Source of the DNA: a virus
Length of the DNA stretch: 40,132 bases
Strand: one strand, 5' to 3'
IMG/VR virus record: IMGVR_UViG_3300009285_000594
Location: 1 to 40,132 of that record
Below are positions 3,429-32,814 of the stretch, piece by piece. The position numbers and the translations under genes were made by a program. Positions within the stretch are counted from its first letter, which is position 1. Each line of letters opens with the position of its first letter. The notes beneath the pieces are model-generated. The model saw only the letters and a list, made by a program, of their open reading frames with translations, made no database searches and had not been told where the DNA came from.

Positions 3429-4505
3429 TTAGACTCCAGTTACTCCAGTTAATCTTCCATGTCTGCGAGGTTGGAATGATAAAAGATTTCCAAGAATAAT
3501 TACATCAGCAATTGACCCAAATTGATTAGTAGAAGTTCTAAATCCACTCCATCCAAATCCAGTGAAATTACTCATTGGTGATTCCGCATAAAGACCTTCT
3601 ACTGTTTGACTTCCAAGACTAATTTTCTTGTAATCAGTACCCTTAGAAGCATCCCATCCATACCAGTCTAACCAATTTTCATTCAACATATAGATAGTTT
3701 GAGCTGTCGCTTTTTCATCACGAACCCAAGGAATACCCTTATAAGTAAGAGCCACAAAACCCTGCATCCCTTTTAATCCTTCTTTTTTAGTCGCTCCACC
3801 ACTTTTTCCAACTTCATAATAACCAGTCATACTATAATTCTCACGAACCATCGGAGTTAAGAGTTGCTCATATAAATCCCAAACTGTTTCGTTAGAAACA
3901 ATTAAGGTAGGAGAAGAAAGAGCTGATCCAGAGGAAATAGCCGAAAATAAAGTTGCTAATTTAGCAAGGGTAAGAGTTCCACCAGAGGCGGTTCTTGTTG
4001 CTTTAATAGCAGTATAAGTAGTTCTGGAAAGTCCACCAAAAGTATCAACAGTAGTACCATCATCAACTACCGCCTGAAGTCCAAGTGGGTCTTTGTTACT
4101 GTTTCCAGTACCATCCCCATAAATAATTGTTCCAAGACCATCAGCCATCTCTTGTTCTGACTCTTCAAGAGATTCTTTAACTAAACCAGTAACCTGTGTT
4201 TCAGAAACCGCATTTGCCACCGTTTCCATTCCAGAAATTGCAACTGGGATTCTGTAACCTCTCATATCAAAAGACATACGAACTTTGGTGTCCAATAAAG
4301 CCGCTGAAAAAGTATCAAGACCAGAGAATGAAGTACCAGTACCAGAAGATTGATACTTGATCGCCTTTTTAATAGATTCACCTTTACCTTGTTTGGCGTT
4401 TCCAAGTAAACGGAAGAGTAAAACATTAGAACCAAGAACATTATCTACAACCTTCGGCAGTAAATAATCTTGGGTTAGGGACAAAACTCGTTCAGAGAAT
4501 GTCAT
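3429..4505 (-). CDS. Major capsid protein (HK97-fold type)
   Basis: A 358-residue protein. Residues about 40-110 carry the coat signature KKAIKYQSSGTGTSFSGLDTF followed by FDMRGYRIPVAISGME. The middle has KDPLGLQAVVDDGTTVDTFG..LSRTTYTAIKA, then LTLAKLATLFSAI and PTLIVSNETVWDLYEQLL, the arrangement seen in podo- and siphovirus major coat proteins. The C-terminus ends RRHGRLTGVTGV. There is no N-terminal prohead-protease delta domain; the scaffold is a separate gene just upstream. The RBS GGAGGCTCCTATG is clear. A dedicated promoter and a terminator-like hairpin lie immediately upstream. Confidence 0.9.
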   Translation of the reverse strand: MTFSERVLSLTQDYLLPKVVDNVLGSNVLLFRLLGNAKQGKGESIKKAIKYQSSGTGTSFSGLDTFSAALLDTKVRMSFDMRGYRIPVAISGMETVANAVSETQVTGLVKESLEESEQEMADGLGTIIYGDGTGNSNKDPLGLQAVVDDGTTVDTFGGLSRTTYTAIKATRTASGGTLTLAKLATLFSAISSGSALSSPTLIVSNETVWDLYEQLLTPMVRENYSMTGYYEVGKSGGATKKEGLKGMQGFVALTYKGIPWVRDEKATAQTIYMLNENWLDWYGWDASKGTDYKKISLGSQTVEGLYAESPMSNFTGFGWSGFRTSTNQFGSIADVIILGNLLSFQPRRHGRLTGVTGV

Positions 4506-5361: not shown

Positions 5362-7419
5362 TTAAGATACTCCCATTAATTGTTTAAGTTTCTGTACATA
5401 TAATTCAATATTAGACTGTATCTCTTGTGGTAACTGCTCAAATTCTGGAGTTTGTACTAATTCTATGAATACCTGAATATAAGGTTGATCCACATTAGGA
5501 GGTGGTGTTACATCTTGACCACTAGCTAACATCTTAATATCCTCAAGAGCTTGAACCTGACTAGGAGTCGGAGTTTCAGGAGCTACCTGACCCATCATTT
5601 CAGGACTTACTGGAGGAACTGCTGGAACTCCACCAGGCATACCCTCCATTGGCGGGGTAGTTGGCGGAATTTCTGCACCATTACCTTGAGGTTGAGGTGT
5701 TTCTGGAGCTGAAGGTATTACTGTTTGACCTAAACCTGCAATATCTGAATATCCTTGAAAATCTTGTGATTGAAAAGCAATTAATCTTCGAGTTCTCTCT
5801 TTAGGATTAGATAAATCCAAATCTTCAGCTAAAGATAATGGATCAATCTGATTATATTGAGCCATTGTTAAAGAATTATCTCTTAAAACCGCTTTATCAA
5901 CAGTACTACCCTTTACGTTTACCAAAATTCCATCATCTATTGTATCCCGACTCATTTCTAAATAAATCATTTCCCCATCTTTACCTGTATCCTTTATATA
6001 ATGAGTCTCATCATACTGTGTTTTCATCATCTGTACTGCCCAATTACACATTTCATAGAAAACACGCTCAACAACCATTGCAACGATATCATCAGAAGTA
6101 GCTAAATCACCTTCTCTGGTAATTTGTCTGGCAATCCCTGACTCATTTGGCACTCTTTCCCCACGAGTCGTTGCATGAGTATTGAATTTACTATCAATCT
6201 GACTTCTATCATTCTGTAACATCTGTAATAACATCGGAGAAGGCATCTGTGCAGGTATCTGCATAATCGCCTGATTGATATTTTCAGCTCCCTTTATCCA
6301 AATTACTTCATCAGGATCATTAGTAATACTCTCTACATCGTCTTTTTGTAAATATGCTCCTGCTACCGCCAATTTAGGGATAGCTCTATCTGCAATTGTA
6401 GTTATCTGACGACCACGCTTATTTACACTATCCTGCAAATCAAGAGATTGTTCCACCGCAGTCGTATCGTCAATCGGATGATCCCCTAAATTCTGATAAG
6501 TAAAAAAGATATATGGTTTACGAGGTTTGTTAAAATGATTAAAATAAACAGTCTTTTCTTCTTCTTTATATCCTTCCCAGTCATAATAGGGATTCTTCAT
6601 CTTTTTAAGAATTATCTTCTTATATTTCCAACAAACAGCTTCATAAACTTTACCGCTTTCATCATACCAAGTATACCAAACCTCTTGATATTTTAATTTA
6701 GTCGGTCTTTTTTGATTATCTTTATCTAAAATCGCTAATTCTTTTAATAACTCTTCTTTCTTTTCGGGAAATTTTGATAAAATTAAAGATAGAGGTTCTT
6801 CTTTATATTCACAAATATATTCCATTCGATCTGCTGTAAATCCATCTTCAGGATAAGTAGCTGTATGATCAAATATAATATTATTCGGATTAATATTTTC
6901 AAAAGTATAATCACCATTCTCAACCGAATCATCCCACCAACACTTAACTACTCCCACAAAAGAAAGATGATTATCACGAATCCCACGCTTAATTACTCTA
7001 CGACTCATATCACGATGTAATTTAATTTTTAAAGCCTTCGTTAAATTCTTAGCATTTTCAATCTTTTCAAGTTCATTATTAGTAGCCGTTACAATAATAT
7101 CAGGGATTTTGTTTACCGCTAGAGAAATTCTAGTTTCAAGATTTTGATAGATTAAATTATCAACATAACCTTCAGTCCAAGAATGAAGTTTATCATTGTC
7201 TATTTGTTTACCAAGCCAGTATTTCTTATTACGCTCACGTCTAGTTTTTAACTTTAAAGTATTTTCATAGAATATTTGGGAATCAGAGATTTTTCTATCG
7301 ATAAGATCAGCAAGTTCTTTTTCATCCTGTTCTAAGTCAAAAGGATTAGTTTCAACAACTACCTCTTCTCCTTTTTGTTCAGGAATTTCAATAGTATCTT
7401 TAGAATTTAAAATGTCCAT
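5362..7419 (-). CDS. Portal protein
   Basis: A 685-residue protein, the length of podovirus-type portals. The N-terminal 60 residues are acidic. The body contains DNHLSFVGVVKCWWDDSVEN, ENINPNNIIFDHTAT and FTADRMEYICEYKEE, typical of the portal clip/wing region. It also has PYIFFTYQNLGDHPIDDTTA followed by EQSLDLQDSVNKRGRQITT, the conserved stretch before the stem, and ARQITREGDLATSDDIVA near residue 430. Residues about 560-640 are Pro/Gln/Met-rich and probably disordered. RBS GGAGGAATAAACT precedes the ATG. It forms the dodecameric DNA channel and packaging vertex with TerL, encoded two genes upstream. Confidence 0.9.
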   Translation of the reverse strand: MDILNSKDTIEIPEQKGEEVVVETNPFDLEQDEKELADLIDRKISDSQIFYENTLKLKTRRERNKKYWLGKQIDNDKLHSWTEGYVDNLIYQNLETRISLAVNKIPDIIVTATNNELEKIENAKNLTKALKIKLHRDMSRRVIKRGIRDNHLSFVGVVKCWWDDSVENGDYTFENINPNNIIFDHTATYPEDGFTADRMEYICEYKEEPLSLILSKFPEKKEELLKELAILDKDNQKRPTKLKYQEVWYTWYDESGKVYEAVCWKYKKIILKKMKNPYYDWEGYKEEEKTVYFNHFNKPRKPYIFFTYQNLGDHPIDDTTAVEQSLDLQDSVNKRGRQITTIADRAIPKLAVAGAYLQKDDVESITNDPDEVIWIKGAENINQAIMQIPAQMPSPMLLQMLQNDRSQIDSKFNTHATTRGERVPNESGIARQITREGDLATSDDIVAMVVERVFYEMCNWAVQMMKTQYDETHYIKDTGKDGEMIYLEMSRDTIDDGILVNVKGSTVDKAVLRDNSLTMAQYNQIDPLSLAEDLDLSNPKERTRRLIAFQSQDFQGYSDIAGLGQTVIPSAPETPQPQGNGAEIPPTTPPMEGMPGGVPAVPPVSPEMMGQVAPETPTPSQVQALEDIKMLASGQDVTPPPNVDQPYIQVFIELVQTPEFEQLPQEIQSNIELYVQKLKQLMGVS

Positions 7420-11121: not shown

Positions 11122-11326
11122 ATAACCCCCTTATTTGTTTTATCTTTTCGAGACTAAATACCTTATCGTCTATAAAAAATAACACCCCTACAGGACAATC
11201 ATTCCTGGTTATCAATACCCCCTTCTCTTTCTCTAACTCTCTCAATATCTTCGTAGCCCCCCTACTTATCTCTCTTATCCCATATTCTTTAATTGTCAGT
11301 ACATTGTCCGTTTTATTATCTTCCAT
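11114..11326 (-). CDS. Phd/YefM-like antitoxin-type regulator
   Basis: A 70-residue protein with TIKEYGIREISRGATKILRE and, further on, GVLITRNDCPVGVLF. The latter corresponds to the 'P-V-x-I-T-R-x-G-x-P-V-A-V-L' core of Phd/YefM DNA-binding domains. The protein is about the length of the DNA-binding part, with only a short C-terminal segment for toxin binding. Four copies of a 14-bp repeat lie at and upstream of its start (11291-11383), consistent with autoregulation. No strong Shine-Dalgarno is seen. It may act as a solitary phage repressor or as the antitoxin of the overlapping downstream gene. Confidence 0.7.
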   Translation of the reverse strand: MEDNKTDNVLTIKEYGIREISRGATKILRELEKEKGVLITRNDCPVGVLFFIDDKVFSLEKIKQIRGLYE

Positions 11327-11383
11327 GTCAGTACTTTATCATATTGTCAGTACATTGTAAAGGGAATTGTCAGTACATTCATA
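11291..11383. repeat. Four-copy operator-like repeat AATTGTCAGTACATT
   Basis: The core TGTCAGTACATT occurs at about 11294-11305, 11346-11357 and 11369-11380; a variant TGTCAGTACTTT occurs at 11326-11337. The core TGTcagtACA is weakly palindromic. One copy lies inside the start of the Phd/YefM-like gene, one overlaps its ATG and two lie upstream. Spacing is about 32, 20 and 23 bases, close to helical multiples. The arrangement suggests cooperative binding of the encoded regulator. Confidence 0.7.
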
Positions 11384-11399
11384 ATAGCTACTTTTTATC

Positions 11400-11429
11400 A
11401 AGGGGGGCTATACCTCCCTTTATTTTTTT
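11400..11429 (+). terminator. Rightward terminator with no rightward gene upstream
   Basis: AAGGGGGG, loop CTATA, CCTCCCTT (8 bp with one G-T), then TATTTTTTT. The T-run is on the plus strand, so it would end a rightward transcript, yet all genes nearby are leftward. The gap 11327-11620 otherwise holds the operator repeats and palindrome copy 2, with no further gene seen. It may end an antisense RNA starting near the repeats, or block rightward read-through. Confidence 0.65.
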
Positions 11430-11593
11430 ATAGTACTGGCAACGTGGTACTAGCCCCCTCTATCAACTTAAACTAGCAATCAGGTTCTGATTATTGCCGT
11501 TATAATAATTGATGATGTTTTATCCAGTGGGATATATGTTTAGGGCTATAGATAGGCTTTAATGTCGCAGATGATTGATTGTGCGACCTTTAT

Positions 11594-14307: not shown

Positions 14308-14524
14308 TATTTTTTTTAATACCTTTTTTAAAAAACGATAATAATTTATATTTTGTCGATTTTTTATTCCAATTACTCTTATTTATACTAAAATTTATAA
14401 AAGTATTACCTTCTCCAATAACAAAAGTTATAGGCATACCCAACCAATCATTTATATCTAAAATACAAAAATATATAAATTGGTACTTACCATTAAACTT
14501 TTTATTATTTAATAATAATTTCAT
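14300..14524 (-). CDS. Unknown small protein (74 residues)
   Basis: Start chosen at MKLLLNNKKFNGKYQFIYFC, three bases beyond the stop of the 31-residue membrane gene. A longer version starting near 14566 would overlap that gene and is less likely. No good Shine-Dalgarno is visible, so translation may depend on re-initiation. The sequence is basic and aromatic with a basic Lys/Asn C-terminus. No family is recognised. Confidence 0.55.
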   Translation of the reverse strand: MKLLLNNKKFNGKYQFIYFCILDINDWLGMPITFVIGEGNTFINFSINKSNWNKKSTKYKLLSFFKKGIKKNNE

Positions 14525-17121: not shown

Positions 17122-17616
17122 TTACAAATAAAAACCAATTTTGTTTTCAACCCATTTTCTAGTTCCACTATTTAATTGCATTTTATTACTATTTTTTCTA
17201 TACCATTCCCTTACTTCACCATATCTATCACCATTTTTAGATAAATGACCTTGAGCCTTTCCAGCTCCAATCCAGTCACACACCATTTCAATTCGACATT
17301 TATTTGGCATTGGAAGAGAAATTTTCTCTCCATCGTCTTGTCTTAAAATCCAATATTGCCAATGATGATCGTTTCTATGAATATGTTTTAACCATGCAGT
17401 ATCAAAAGCAAGATTCCTTCCTGGAATATGAAAATCTGAATAATAAGATGGAGTCTTCCCGTAAAAATAATTCATATAAGAAAACCACTCACTTAATAAT
17501 AATTTACTTAAATCATGAGTAAAAGCTCTTTGATATAAACCCTCTCGCCAACATTCTAATCCTACATACCATTTATGTTTAATTAAATACCAGGCATATT
17601 GAAAATATTTCTTCAT
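17122..17616 (-). CDS. DUF5662-like protein
   Basis: A 164-residue protein. HKWYVGLECWREGLYQRAFT, then HDLSK, HIHRNDHHWQYW, IEMVCDWIGAGKAQG and a final TRKWVENKI match the pattern I know as DUF5662: conserved His/Asp pairs, repeated His residues and EMVCDW, suggesting a metal-binding helical fold related to HD hydrolases. Activity is unproven. RBS AAGGAG precedes the ATG. The leader upstream contains an interleaved inverted-repeat structure and a possible leader peptide, so expression may be controlled after transcription starts. Confidence 0.75.
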   Translation of the reverse strand: MKKYFQYAWYLIKHKWYVGLECWREGLYQRAFTHDLSKLLLSEWFSYMNYFYGKTPSYYSDFHIPGRNLAFDTAWLKHIHRNDHHWQYWILRQDDGEKISLPMPNKCRIEMVCDWIGAGKAQGHLSKNGDRYGEVREWYRKNSNKMQLNSGTRKWVENKIGFYL

Positions 17617-17638
17617 AAATTCTCCTTGTTATTTATTA

Positions 17639-17739
17639 CACTCTTAAGTCTTAGATAGGATTGCGGATTTTAACCGCTTACATTTTCGACCTTTCCTACA
17701 TGGATTAGACCGCCTATCTAAGATTAAAAGTGCAATCCT
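17639..17739 (-). promoter_or_regulatory. Structured leader with interleaved inverted repeats upstream of the DUF5662-like gene
   Basis: Arm A: CACTCTTAAGTCTTAGATAGG (17639-17659, written with a break at the mismatch: CACTCTTAAG then TCTTAGATAGG) pairs with CCTATCTAAGATTAAAAGTG (17713-17732). The inner 11 pairs are perfect, and the outer part has one wobble and one bulge. Arm X: AGGATTGC (17657-17664) pairs perfectly with GCAATCCT (17732-17739). The order on the RNA is X, A, X', A', so the two pairings interleave: a pseudoknot or two exclusive states. A small GCGG/CCGC hairpin lies in the loop. Confidence 0.6.
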
Positions 17740-17774
17740 TGTTTCTCTTTTTTAGTATAAACTTTGATATTCAT
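17724..17774 (-). CDS. Possible 16-residue leader peptide
   Basis: ATG 17774 has RBS TAGGAG at good spacing and encodes MNIKVYTKKEKQGLHF. Its last codons and stop lie in the 5' arms of the interleaved structure at 17639-17739. A ribosome translating or stalling here would disrupt those arms and could change the folding ahead of the DUF5662-like gene. No amino-acid run typical of classical attenuators is seen. Confidence 0.4.
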   Translation of the reverse strand: MNIKVYTKKEKQGLHF

Positions 17775-18676: not shown

Positions 18677-18703
18677 AATAAACTCCTTTTTAATTATTAT
18701 TCC

Positions 18704-18772
18704 CTACAAGCTGGTGTGCGTCAGCAAGAGCAGTGCTTTGAGAAACAAAACTCAACCCATACCAGCTTGTAG
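18704..18772 (-). promoter_or_regulatory. 12-bp perfect inverted repeat in the leader of the pentapeptide gene
   Basis: CTACAAGCTGGT (18704-18715) and ACCAGCTTGTAG (18761-18772) enclose 45 bases that can form an inner hairpin (TTGAG/CTCAA). A segment within the loop (GTCAGCAAGAGCAG, 18720-18733) is partly complementary to CTGCCTTCTGCTAAC (18831-18845) outside, again an interleaved arrangement but with mismatches. The rest of 18677-18907 holds no gene; CAACGA/TCGTTG forms a small hairpin near 18882-18896. Confidence 0.55.
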
Positions 18773-18907
18773 AGAGAGAAGGCTTCAAACTTTCCGCAAC
18801 TCGAGTACTTAGGATGTCATCTGCCTTCTGCTAACTACACTTATCTTTATGGCAACGTGGTGTGGAGACTGATCGCTGTAAACAACGAAATCGTTGCATA
18901 AGAAAAG

Positions 18908-19093
18908 CTAATTGTTAAGTATATATCTAATTAAATCTTCCGCTTTTTCTAATGTTGTAAATACTGCTATCTTTTTGTTTTCCTCTGGAGTCTTTTGAAA
19001 TACTCGGTAGTCATCTTGAGCATACTTGCGAATGTAATACCCTTCTATATACTTCACATAACCTACTTTTTTACAATAAGATTGTATTGACAT
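18908..19093 (-). CDS. Unknown protein of 61 residues
   Basis: The sequence MSIQSYCKKVGYVKYIEGYY, then VFQKTPEENKKIAVFTTLEK and AEDLIRYILNN looks like a small beta-beta-alpha fold in which a fixed peptide binds a substrate, but no family is recognised. RBS AGAGGTAAAAAT lies directly after the 3' arm of the 19106-19178 hairpin, so that structure could influence translation. Confidence 0.65.
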   Translation of the reverse strand: MSIQSYCKKVGYVKYIEGYYIRKYAQDDYRVFQKTPEENKKIAVFTTLEKAEDLIRYILNN

Positions 19094-19105: not shown

Positions 19106-19178
19106 GGGTTGGTAGTAAGTTAGGGAGCGATAGTCGACTTCTCATTCCCGCCCACTTACAGGGACTTCTTACCAACCC
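19106..19178 (-). promoter_or_regulatory. Long nested hairpin between two early genes
   Basis: GGGTTGGTA (19106-19114) pairs with TACCAACCC (19170-19178). Inside, GTAAGT (19115-19120) pairs with ACTTAC (19154-19159), and GGGA (19123-19126) pairs with TCCC (19146-19149), with a bulge of about ten bases on one side. The structure ends next to the RBS of the 61-residue gene. There is no T-run, so this is not a terminator. Confidence 0.6.
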
Positions 19179-21984: not shown

Positions 21985-22022
21985 TTAAAAAACCGCCGAC
22001 CATTGAAAAATGATTAGCGGTT
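21985..22022 (-). terminator. Terminator after the 110-residue gene
   Basis: Read leftward: AACCGCTAATCATT, loop TTTC, AATGGTCGGCGGTT, then TTTTTTAATT. The stem is 14 pairs with one mismatch and two wobbles. It begins inside the stop region of the 22014-22346 gene and ends just before the next start. Confidence 0.7.
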
Positions 22023-22346
22023 GTCTGGGTTTAATAATTTTGTGACGATATTTTTTATTTTTTCTTCATTTCTACCAATCTCTCCCCCAATATGCCATTC
22101 AGTTATATCCTTAGTTTTTAACCCTTTGTTTCCTAAATAATTTTTACCATCTTTGTAATTATAAATTGTAATACATCCTTCTGATGTAAGAATAATCCAT
22201 TCCGCATCTGTTTTATCTTCTCCCTTATTTGGTTTACCGAATGTTTTAACCAATCTATTATAAGAAATATCTATATAATCTTTAAATGAAGTTCCTGCAA
22301 TGGGAGAGTAGTGAAAATCTGGAATACAAACTTTTATTATGTCCAT
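22014..22346 (-). CDS. Conserved phage-type hypothetical protein
   Basis: Start chosen at MDIIKVCIPDFHYSPIAG (RBS GAGGG), not the upstream TTG at 22394, which would put the N-terminus in a structured leader. The 110 residues include YNRLVKTFGKPNKGEDKTDA, EWIILTSEGCITIYNYKDGK, NYLG and WHIGG, blocks I recall from small uncharacterised phage proteins. It is the first gene after the strong promoter at 22464-22492 and is preceded by an unusual interleaved structure. Confidence 0.75.
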   Translation of the reverse strand: MDIIKVCIPDFHYSPIAGTSFKDYIDISYNRLVKTFGKPNKGEDKTDAEWIILTSEGCITIYNYKDGKNYLGNKGLKTKDITEWHIGGEIGRNEEKIKNIVTKLLNPDNR

Positions 22347-22435
22347 AAAAAAATCCCTCTGTTCGTTGGGTCTGGGCTGTAGGTTCTGCGACAAACCGTT
22401 ACAGACCCAGCGAATAAAAGGATCTTTTGTCGCAT
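22337..22435 (-). CDS. Possible upstream reading frame across the structured leader (32 codons)
   Basis: ATG 22435 is preceded by AAGG at about 8 bases and starts MRQKILLFAGSVTVCRRTYS; it ends at TAA 22337-22339, overlapping the start of the next gene by 10 bases in another frame. A ribosome on it would open the whole interleaved structure. Coding potential is not otherwise supported, so it may be chance. Confidence 0.3.
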   Translation of the reverse strand: MRQKILLFAGSVTVCRRTYSPDPTNRGIFLWT

Positions 22436-22445
22436 ATTTACAGCC
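22362..22445 (-). promoter_or_regulatory. Interleaved inverted-repeat leader (pseudoknot/switch topology)
   Basis: Pairing A: TTCGTTGGGTCTG (22362-22374) with CAGACCCAGCGAA (22402-22414), 13 pairs with one wobble. Pairing B: GGCTGTA (22375-22381) and GCGACAAA (22388-22395) with TTTGTCGC (22426-22433) and TACAGCC (22439-22445), 15 pairs in two blocks. The order on the RNA is B, A, B', A', directly after the promoter's start site and directly before the RBS. It can fold as a large H-type pseudoknot or as two exclusive hairpins. Confidence 0.75.
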
Positions 22446-22463
22446 TTATTTAATTCAAATTAC

Positions 22464-22492
22464 ATACTAGCACAAACAAAAAGAAATGTCAA
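22464..22492 (-). promoter_or_regulatory. Strong leftward promoter of the early block
   Basis: Read leftward: TTGACA (22492-22487), exactly 17 bases, TAGTAT (22469-22464). The predicted start is near 22457, so the transcript begins just before the interleaved structure. The -10 and spacing match the rightward promoter at 12151-12179. Confidence 0.8.
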
Positions 22493-22495
22493 GAA

Positions 22496-22526
22496 CCCAA
22501 AAAGCCAACCATTTCTGGAAGGCTTG
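22496..22526 (-). terminator. Weak terminator just upstream of the early promoter
   Basis: Read leftward: AAGCCTTCC, loop AGAAAT, GGTTGGCTT, then TTT. Five outer pairs, two mismatches and two inner pairs. It may help insulate the promoter from late transcription. Confidence 0.45.
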
Positions 22527-22614
22527 TTGAGACTTGTTGTTTAATATTATATCACGTTTAACTATATATCGAAACCATATATCATAATAATAATATTTTG
22601 ATATACAAGAAAAC

Positions 22615-22643
22615 GGGAAACTAAAGGGAAACTAAAGGGAAAC
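22615..22643. repeat. GGGAAACTAAA direct repeats
   Basis: An 11-bp unit GGGAAACTAAA repeated about 2.5 times without gaps, in an AT-rich stretch with ATATAT arms (about 22564-22582). One helical turn per unit suggests a protein-binding array. The rest of 22527-22643 holds no gene. Confidence 0.55.
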
Positions 22644-22690
22644 AAAAAAGAGGCAAGTTGACTATGAATACATAGTATTGGCTTACCTCT
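22644..22690 (-). terminator. Main terminator of the late block
   Basis: Read leftward: AGAGGTAAG, a 24-base loop with an inner CTATG/CATAG hairpin, CTTGCCTCT, then TTTTTT. Nine pairs with one wobble. Confidence 0.75.
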
Positions 22691-22698
22691 CCAAAGAA

Positions 22699-22731
22699 AG
22701 AGGTAGGATAACTGCCCAGCAACCTACCTCT
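22699..22731 (-). terminator. First of two tandem hairpins after the holin-like gene
   Basis: Read leftward: AGAGGTAGG, a 15-base loop, CCTACCTCT, then TTCTTT. A perfect 9-bp stem. It shares the AGAGGTA sequence with the second hairpin, so the two may be duplicates. Confidence 0.65.
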
Positions 22732-22744
22732 CACCTTCATTATA

Positions 22745-22984
22745 TCACTTACTTCCTAGAACTTGGCTAATTTTATAAACTCCCGAACTTGATATTCCAA
22801 CCGCGAATCCAATCTCTAAACTTGGTAGACCAAACCACTTAAGATAACCAAAGACTGTACCTGCTATTACTGCTACCATAAAGAATACAAAAGACTTCCA
22901 ATTACGTTCAAAAGCAAATTGTATTCCGTTCACAAGTCCAATTAAAACAAAAGCCGCCATTACATAACCTTCTAATTCTGGCAT
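22745..22984 (-). CDS. Holin-like membrane protein
   Basis: A 79-residue protein with two or three membrane segments (about 8-25, 30-48 and 55-72): VMAAFVLIGLVNGIQFAF, SFVFFMVAVIAGTVFGYL and LEIGFAVGISSSGVYKIS. A short charged loop (ERNWKS) follows the first, and the tail is basic. Size, topology and the position at the end of the lysis cassette fit a phage holin, which would let the lytic enzyme reach the cell wall. No specific holin family is claimed. RBS AGAAGGTG is present. Confidence 0.7.
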   Translation of the reverse strand: MPELEGYVMAAFVLIGLVNGIQFAFERNWKSFVFFMVAVIAGTVFGYLKWFGLPSLEIGFAVGISSSGVYKISQVLGSK

Positions 22985-23026
22985 AATAATTCACCTTCTT
23001 TCGTTAGATATATAATTTATTAGTAA

Positions 23027-32400: not shown

Positions 32401-32814
32401 ATCTATGCCAGTTGTTGTTGCACCAGTACCAGAAACTAAAGAAGTCGCTCCAATTGTCCAACCACCTATTGTTCCAGTTGTTGCTGTAATAGAACCAGTT
32501 ATTGTTGCTGAACTAGCTACCAAATTACCACTTTCATCAACCCTAAAAGGAGCACTAGAAGCTGTAGCATTACCAGCCCAAAATCTCCAATCCACTCCTG
32601 TTGTTACCTCTGAACTTAATCCTACTGCTCCACTAGACGAGGTTAAAGAAGTTTCTCTTAATCTCCAACCCCCAATAGCATATTCTCCTATTGCTGGAGT
32701 ATTAACTGATTGAGCAACAAGCATATTTCCATCAATCCTTCTATCTTCTTGTTGAGTTACCAATTCTTCCTTATCTGGTATTTCGGGGAAACTTTCTTCT
32801 TTAATAGTAGGCAT
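29494..32814 (-). CDS. Tail fibre/spike protein 1
   Basis: A 1106-residue protein. Residues about 50-190 hold repeated beta modules around GTIGGWTIGATSLVSGTG, SAPFRVTQAGALTATSATIS and GAITATSGTIGGW. The middle includes an NTTTGSYNVCIGYRAETNAD type of segment (fibre-like hexapeptide loops) and the module QGHSTQTANLTEWQ...TQTDGNEYIDSLADGYLDIG, which also occurs in fibre 2. The last 110 residues contain DGVEMPDG-like loops, a Lys-rich stretch and a trimerising coiled coil (FKEINERLNKLESK). It probably binds host receptors. It overlaps the nozzle gene by one base. Confidence 0.85.
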   Translation of the reverse strand: MPTIKEESFPEIPDKEELVTQQEDRRIDGNMLVAQSVNTPAIGEYAIGGWRLRETSLTSSSGAVGLSSEVTTGVDWRFWAGNATASSAPFRVDESGNLVASSATITGSITATTGTIGGWTIGATSLVSGTGATTTGIDSAGINPAFYAGSATPGSAPFRVTQAGALTATSATISGAITATSGTIGGWIITTNGISTDATEANAEVLINKTTASIRLGATSGNYITIDGDNQRIRSSNYVTGVAGSGFNIDSDLIEAGNMAVRGVIRSAVFQKDVVSAVGGNLLVRPSDVLDTDMTAADSSTLTISGSETFAVGDFLQIKDGVDSEWFEVTDIASAPTYTVTRDKDAQYGADANPTWKKGATVVNFGASGEGGIYLTSSETNAPYMSVFTHAGVPWDTLTTRLRVGNLNGYLDYVTDIYGFAVGDSSNYISVDPTNNLRIVTSAANAITINNGGNILLKEGGDLYFSVVSSAGAATAALITAAGNVEAGTRIYKITYISSHGETNLGIGSNTVITDGTHQQVSLSNIPTSSSNAVTSRNIYRTPASGVGYFYLGSINDNTTTTYTDNISDTALGTVLSDYKENMTSGSLIFKTTRTSFFSDTNLGIGTNVLDALLYSSGRYNIAFGGGSGQSIEGGSYNVLYGYSSGISITTGEGNVFIGDSAGGNTTTGSYNVCIGYRAETNADSDSNKLIIANSNSIGYIPLIQGEFDNKNITLTGNQVIDGVNDIIQLTIQGHSTQTANLTEWQNSSADVLAYVSPTGGALFGDKVAFTQTDGNEYIDSLADGYLDIGATTGIRLLQSTTIKNGASLIINSAGDDKNVTISHDDTNGQITCSGDLYIEPAGLDISLRNGTKLGIMSAGNDKYVQLYHDDTNPILLGSSGNFVLKTGADGNTGSDASPNQTWSLQDVNGDEMFKTISLTSMAVTQILGHNGRYNRFDVFDDDNNSRVSLSHNGTNGTVYATGDMILQAVGNDIYPDDAGATNLGTAANYFADVSYKTLTDRGCLGFFDEGVEMPDGKTYSDLTALSMIKVRDDEKKTIYGKPMLDYKSFPVVSYKKADKKGKLIKRNKKDEPIEGADGIEMTSMFSIMIGAFKEINERLNKLESK

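Follow-up and report, generated by a model that had tools for sequence, protein, structure and literature searches.

Do two long inverted repeats that interleave in the leader of one small phage gene build a single structure, or do they make alternative structures that decide whether the gene is expressed? The question arises in an IMG/VR virus record, linear, with about 34% G+C and nearly all genes on the minus strand; the window, meaning the whole stretch that was analyzed, is 40,132 nt long. In it a leader (E1) carrying two pairings, A and B, separates a promoter from the gene P0001, with the following features from 5′ to 3′.

22502-22525 (-): terminator-like hairpin AAGCC-TTCCA...TGG-TTGGCTT, then T5, just 5′ of the promoter, by sequence reading
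22464-22492 (-): promoter TTGACA-17-TAGTAT, 10 of 12 matches, predicted start near 22457
22347-22457 (-): leader RNA with both pairings (E1), about 110 nt
22439-22445 (-): B1, GGCTGTA, partner of B1′
22337-22435 (-): putative leader ORF, 32 codons, MRQKILLFAGSVTVCRRTYSPDPTNRGIFLWT, ATG at 22435, SD AAGG 8 nt 5′ of the ATG
22426-22433 (-): B2, GCGACAAA, partner of B2′
22416-22428 (-): 5′ side of the helix A extension, AAAAGATCCTTTT, which pairs with the SD and U-run
22402-22414 (-): 5′ arm of A, TTCGCTGGGTCTG
22388-22395 (-): B2′, TTTGTCGC
22375-22381 (-): B1′, TACAGCC, adjoining A′
22362-22374 (-): A′, the 3′ arm, CAGACCCAACGAA
22347-22360 (-): SD GAGG (22356-22359) and U7 run (22347-22353); 22348-22360 are paired in state A
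22014-22346 (-): gene P0001, 110 aa, the controlled gene in our proposal
21987-22022 (-): possible terminator 3′ of P0001 (AACCGC...GCGGTTTTTT), again read from the sequence; its loop exceeds the limit of the scan

The consensus promoter that a first-pass annotation had placed here is indeed present at 22492-22464 on the minus strand, where it also has an extended -10 TGn; sites of its class number 20 in the promoter scan against 20.0 expected, so that it is not significant as a scan. About 20 nt 5′ of the terminator-like hairpin at 22525-22502 lies a perfect extended -10, TGATATAAT (22546-22554, minus strand), and the two together could produce a short terminated transcript 5′ of the leader promoter. 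The same intergenic region 5′ of the leader promoter also holds direct repeats of GGGAAACTAAA, about 2.5 copies at 22615-22643 on the plus strand.

Between promoter and P0001 the arms run B1-B2-A-B2′-B1′-A′ on the minus strand, and the interleaved order B-A-B′-A′ with B1′ abutting A′, as annotated earlier, is correct by coordinates. The 15 pairs that had been given for B are correct as a count (7 + 8) but are not continuous, as a 5x6 internal loop splits the helix; because of this loop, an ungapped scan for 12-pair interleaved stems returned nothing. Of the 13 pairs given for A, one of them as a wobble, 12 are Watson-Crick, but the remaining position is a C.A mismatch on the minus strand and G.U on the plus strand only. 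Helix A has in addition an extension that had been overlooked, in which AAAAGATCCTTTT (22428-22416) pairs with AGAGGGATTTTTT (22360-22348) through 13 pairs, three of them G.U, spanning the SD GAGG and nearly the whole U7 run before the ATG. This run lies between the SD and the AUG and ends right at the P0001 start codon. Within the fold that contains B (state B), GATCC of the 5′ arm of the extension pairs with GGGTC.

The two pairings are real and beyond chance, as the annotation had held. The minimum free energy of E1 has a z of -4.28, matched by 0 of 200 shuffles, and the foldings of A and B, which are nearly independent (r = 0.07), were jointly reached by 0 of 2000 dinucleotide shuffles. 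Taken singly, the B-only part (-28.2 kcal/mol) was reached by 2 of 2000 and the A-only part (-31.8 kcal/mol) by 1 of 2000; E1 was chosen for its repeats from 40 kb, and these shuffle figures are thus not genome-wide probabilities. Scored as duplexes, the whole of A gives -31.6 kcal/mol and B -22.9 kcal/mol. Over 116 nt two alternative states of the leader are predicted, one at -35.7 and the other at -31.7 kcal/mol; shuffles produce either less often than 1 in 500, and state A has the lower energy once the transcript is complete.

The first-pass annotation had left open whether the interleaving means a large H-type pseudoknot or two exclusive states. The geometry disfavors a knot of full A with full B, which, judged from linker lengths rather than a 3D model, is sterically implausible because no nucleotide lies between B1′ and A′ to span the 15-pair helix B; two exclusive states therefore fit better. 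Partial knots are possible by loop lengths, combining A either with B1 alone or with B2 alone, where the linkers measure about 11, 6 and 13 nt. Folding calculations lend support to exclusive states through their similar energies, the high barrier between them, the order in which they form and an SD that is fully paired only in A. When growing transcripts of the leader are folded with nested structures alone, B reaches its full form at -29 kcal/mol ahead of the synthesis of A′, and A becomes the better fold at about the U-run. The computed barrier for refolding between A and B is 26-30 kcal/mol without pseudoknots, an upper bound since knotted intermediates are ignored, and a barrier this high means that the choice of state is likely made during transcription. 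The predicted probability that the SD GAGG is unpaired is 0.00 in state A and 0.46 in state B. Against a switch stand the facts that the SD is only about half open in state B, that in state A, as in state B, the leader AUG is mainly base-paired (unpaired probability 0.04 in a 142-nt ensemble) and that the folding energy of E1 favors neither strand (z -0.21). In these predictions the reciprocal exposure of SD and leader AUG is imperfect.

A short frame from ATG 22435 across the element, also noted earlier, is there, with 32 codons and its end at 22337. Its stop overlaps the start of P0001 (ATGGACATAA), and its SD and start codon sit inside B. Of the shuffles, 1.1% contain a start with a spaced SD and a frame open as far as the gene, and 11% an open frame without the SD. 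Just 5′ of the P0001 ATG the frame contains an in-frame U UUU UUA run, from which a -1 reading enters the gene frame; this run may be due to chance.

Based on these predictions, we propose that E1 controls P0001 (22014-22346) in cis, as a two-state leader RNA of the attenuator type, the best of the readings weighed, to which we give a probability of roughly 0.45. Translation of the putative leader ORF would be the input. B would form first, and state A would become the more stable only once the SD and U-run had been transcribed. State A would be OFF, through blocked initiation, premature termination or both, because it buries the SD and places a hairpin directly before the U7 run; state B would be ON because it leaves the SD partly open. 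A ribosome initiating or stalled on the leader ORF would prevent B and favor A, whereas ribosomes reading through the ORF would melt A and arrive, by coupling, at the gene start that the ORF overlaps. P0001, which has a promoter of its own and terminator-like hairpins on either side, would form an accessory cassette. If this proposal is right, an RNA switch governs a phage gene from a widespread, unknown family; it would do without a ligand pocket, and its two states would be mutually exclusive through topology, without a shared strand.

Members of the P0001 family occur widely in viral contigs (15 and 80 loci), and the family has the consensus KTDAEW...TIYNYKDGKNY...WHIGG; the protein has no family match in Pfam, PHROGs, NCBIfam or PADLOC. 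Its structural model (pLDDT 84) matches uncharacterized viral proteins and, more weakly, proteins of giant viruses, and a comparison to the Tetrahymena mitoribosomal chain 6z1p_AR gave a Foldseek E of 7e-4 and a Z of 8.4 with an rmsd of 3.3 over 106 residues. Searching solved structures with the sequence yielded nothing useful.

The first-pass annotation had advised collecting related phage leaders and looking for compensatory changes, and no homologous leader was found in IMG/VR, GTDB, phages or plasmids. Exact and gapped patterns found none in IMG/VR and GTDB genomes, and blastn against phages and plasmids returned only promoter or AT-rich scraps. None of up to 80 loci with P0001 relatives has a similar leader; their upstream regions are ordinary, and several low-energy ones look like terminators of the previous gene. 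Phages that are kin by terminase and portal, one of them (G050) with 80% identity over the 3429-4505 protein, lack both P0001 and the leader, which marks the two as an accessory cassette. The nearest named phages of the portal protein (5362-7419, minus strand) are MW202566 (39%) and TM7 phage DolZOral124_53_65 (29%), a kinship by which the host may be a Patescibacterium.

The evidence does not establish a new RNA class. No Rfam covariance model matched the window at its gathering score, and relaxed thresholds gave a best E of 0.52 with eukaryotic snoRNA and miRNA models, which we attribute to chance; equally, the databases searched yielded no homologous leader in which to look for compensatory change. 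ARAGORN found neither tRNA nor tmRNA. An HDV-like ribozyme (P1-P2-P3-P1′-P4-P2′) was rejected by eye for want of a P4 between B′ and A′, and integron attC sites for inconsistent core sites. We also rejected a type III toxin-antitoxin system (ToxIN): with the settings of the tool, 22000-23000 has no direct repeats, and the protein has no match in Pfam, NCBIfam or PADLOC.

Elsewhere in the window a second leader has the same order of arms as E1, and two more leaders near it are structured.

17635-17774 (-): second leader with the same order (E2), before the gene 17122-17616
17774-17726 (-): E2 leader ORF, 16 codons, strong SD, ending inside B/A
17739-17732 and 17664-17657 (-): E2 B, AGGATTGC, and B′, GCAATCCT
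17736-17713 and 17659-17635 (-): E2 A and A′, forming about 24 pairs interrupted by one bulge; B′ overlaps A′
18690-18840 (-): structured intergenic leader (E3), 15-pair stem around CTACAAGCTGG/CCAGCTTGTAG, before a pentapeptide-repeat gene (18676)
19106-19178 (-): E4, single strong hairpin GGGTTGGTAAG/CTTACTACCAACCC, before 18908-19093

E2 folds with a z of -5.94, and given its A, a B this good appeared in 7 of 2000 shuffles. Its coding strand folds better than the complement (difference -10.9 against a null of -2.7 +/- 3.2, z -2.58). Along its predicted folding path B comes first (-23.0), and once A′ is complete A replaces it (-36 to -39). Helix A of E2 neither covers the SD nor has a U-run after it, so the mechanism drawn for E1 cannot simply be transferred, and a common OFF mechanism is not supported. 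The loop of its A contains a start codon directly followed by a stop (ATG-TAA, 17683), which has an SD of its own. A tRNA-like reading of E2, from a 7-pair outer stem, was rejected by eye, as T-arm and acceptor would share bases. About two dozen relatives of the E2 gene were tested and have no homologous leader; the upstream region of one (L230) is formally interleaved, and we rejected it as G+C-rich, coding-like DNA rather than a homologous leader.

E3 and E4 belong to the same accessory block as E2. E3 has a very strong A and a B pairing that is not significant (259 of 2000 shuffles). Rfam has no match for E2 to E4, and the structured leaders have no sequence in common. Across all leaders of the window a scan for the order B-A-B′-A′ found six, E1 among them, against 0.2 expected; in two sister phages the same scan found 12 against 13.6 expected and 5 against 2.4 expected, so there the order is not over-represented. 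Three of the six, at 14524, at 11326 and on the plus strand at 32405, are weaker; we judge them to be chance or repeats in or beside other genes, and probably not leaders of this kind. The stretch 11326-11460 has several copies of TGTCAGTAC, together with GGGGGCTA...TAGCCCCC in inverted form, around the start of a small gene and looks like a separate regulatory region.

One could ask whether architecture, and not sequence, defines a new kind of two-state leader, in which B and B′ sit immediately 5′ of the arms of A in the order B-A-B′-A′, B′ abuts A′, a short leader ORF crosses the element and B forms first during transcription, and which controls the accessory genes at 22346 and 17616 and perhaps 18676. 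We regard this as a long shot. Were it true, such leaders might sense in a general way how translation proceeds in the infected cell, and more than one such leader per genome would provide a sequence-independent search rule for other phages.

Reading E1 as a two-state attenuator draws support from both foldings beating the shuffles, from the difference in SD exposure, from the rarity of such a leader ORF in shuffles, from the excess of interleaved leaders in the window and from E2, which repeats the order and the path from B to A; it is weakened by the lack of a homologous leader and of covariation and by the ordinary upstream regions of the relatives. A simpler account has no switch at all: helix A would be a constitutive 5′ hairpin that serves silencing, weak expression or mRNA stabilization, and B an unused folding intermediate. 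The greater stability of state A in the full transcript, with its hidden SD, fits such a hairpin, as do E3 and E4, single strong hairpins before an RBS in the same block, yet chance accounts for B alone as poorly as for A (2 of 2000), and B comprises two perfectly complementary segments, and we consider this account unlikely. We think it quite unlikely that the leader is instead bound by a protein, possibly the P0001 product, which would recognize one fold or a partial pseudoknot and repress its own translation. The partial knots A + B2 and A + B1 should be sterically possible by loop lengths, and the resemblance of the P0001 model to 6z1p_AR could mean RNA binding; however, a Z near 8 may reflect merely a common arrangement, and homologous genes without the leader indicate that the protein is not tied to this RNA.

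Other explanations move the function away from the minus-strand RNA. The repeats might act as DNA and lie in the leader by chance, whether they form operator dyads, serve as a recombination site or belong to a mobile insert with hairpin ends; both E1 and E2 do resemble insertions between genes, with relatives of both genes lacking them and complementary ends of about 24 nt bounding E2. The structured leaders nevertheless have no common sequence, A extends through G.U pairs into the SD, which would be meaningless for DNA, and E2 folds far better on its coding strand (z -2.58); we consider a DNA element quite improbable. Highly improbable, in our assessment, is a functional RNA from the plus strand, a short antisense RNA covering the leader, of the sort that controls plasmid copy number or acts in type I toxin-antitoxin loci. 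On that strand the odd pair of A becomes a G.U wobble, which makes a continuous 15-pair stem (z -3.75), and a weak promoter-like site at 22311-22340 would start a transcript near 22347; but this site is no better than in shuffles, the SD extension has three G.U pairs that exist on the minus strand only, and the strong promoter faces the opposite direction.

How does the proposed two-state attenuator compare with known systems? In the SAM-II and preQ1 pseudoknot riboswitches, pairings interleave and the SD lies at the 3′ arm. E1 is alike in both respects, whereas it has no Rfam match or recognized aptamer, its helices are much longer and its linker has zero nucleotides. In attenuators of the trp and pyr type a hairpin made early competes with one that forms later and has a U-run behind it, as would be the case in E1; unlike these, E1 has its U-run between SD and AUG, which would place termination just before the gene, and its core B and core A have no arm nucleotides in common.

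The repY-repZ region of ColIb-P9 has a leader ORF beside or overlapping the gene, an SD in a stem, a possible pseudoknot and translational coupling. E1 resembles it in its putative leader ORF overlapping the gene, an SD predicted to be buried in a stem, a possible pseudoknot and, as we propose, translational coupling, but it differs in pairing order and sequences, its gene is not a replication initiator, and no antisense RNA has been demonstrated. Among the references of PMC10724649 are papers on IncI-alpha/IncB rep control (Asano and Mizobuchi 1998, Praszkier 1992). The translational attenuators of ermB and ermC use a short leader ORF and alternative hairpins, one state of which buries the downstream SD (PMC8274638, PMC5118997). 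E1 has the same elements, a putative short leader ORF and predicted alternative hairpins with SD burial in one state, in a different arrangement: its order is B-A-B′-A′ with separate core nucleotides, whereas in erm a shared strand switches partners, and its leader ORF overlaps the start of a gene that is not a methylase and for which no inducer is known. In our best reading, E1 would work like an attenuator with a leader ORF, of the kind seen in erm and repY-repZ, a likeness of mechanism and not of family membership by sequence.
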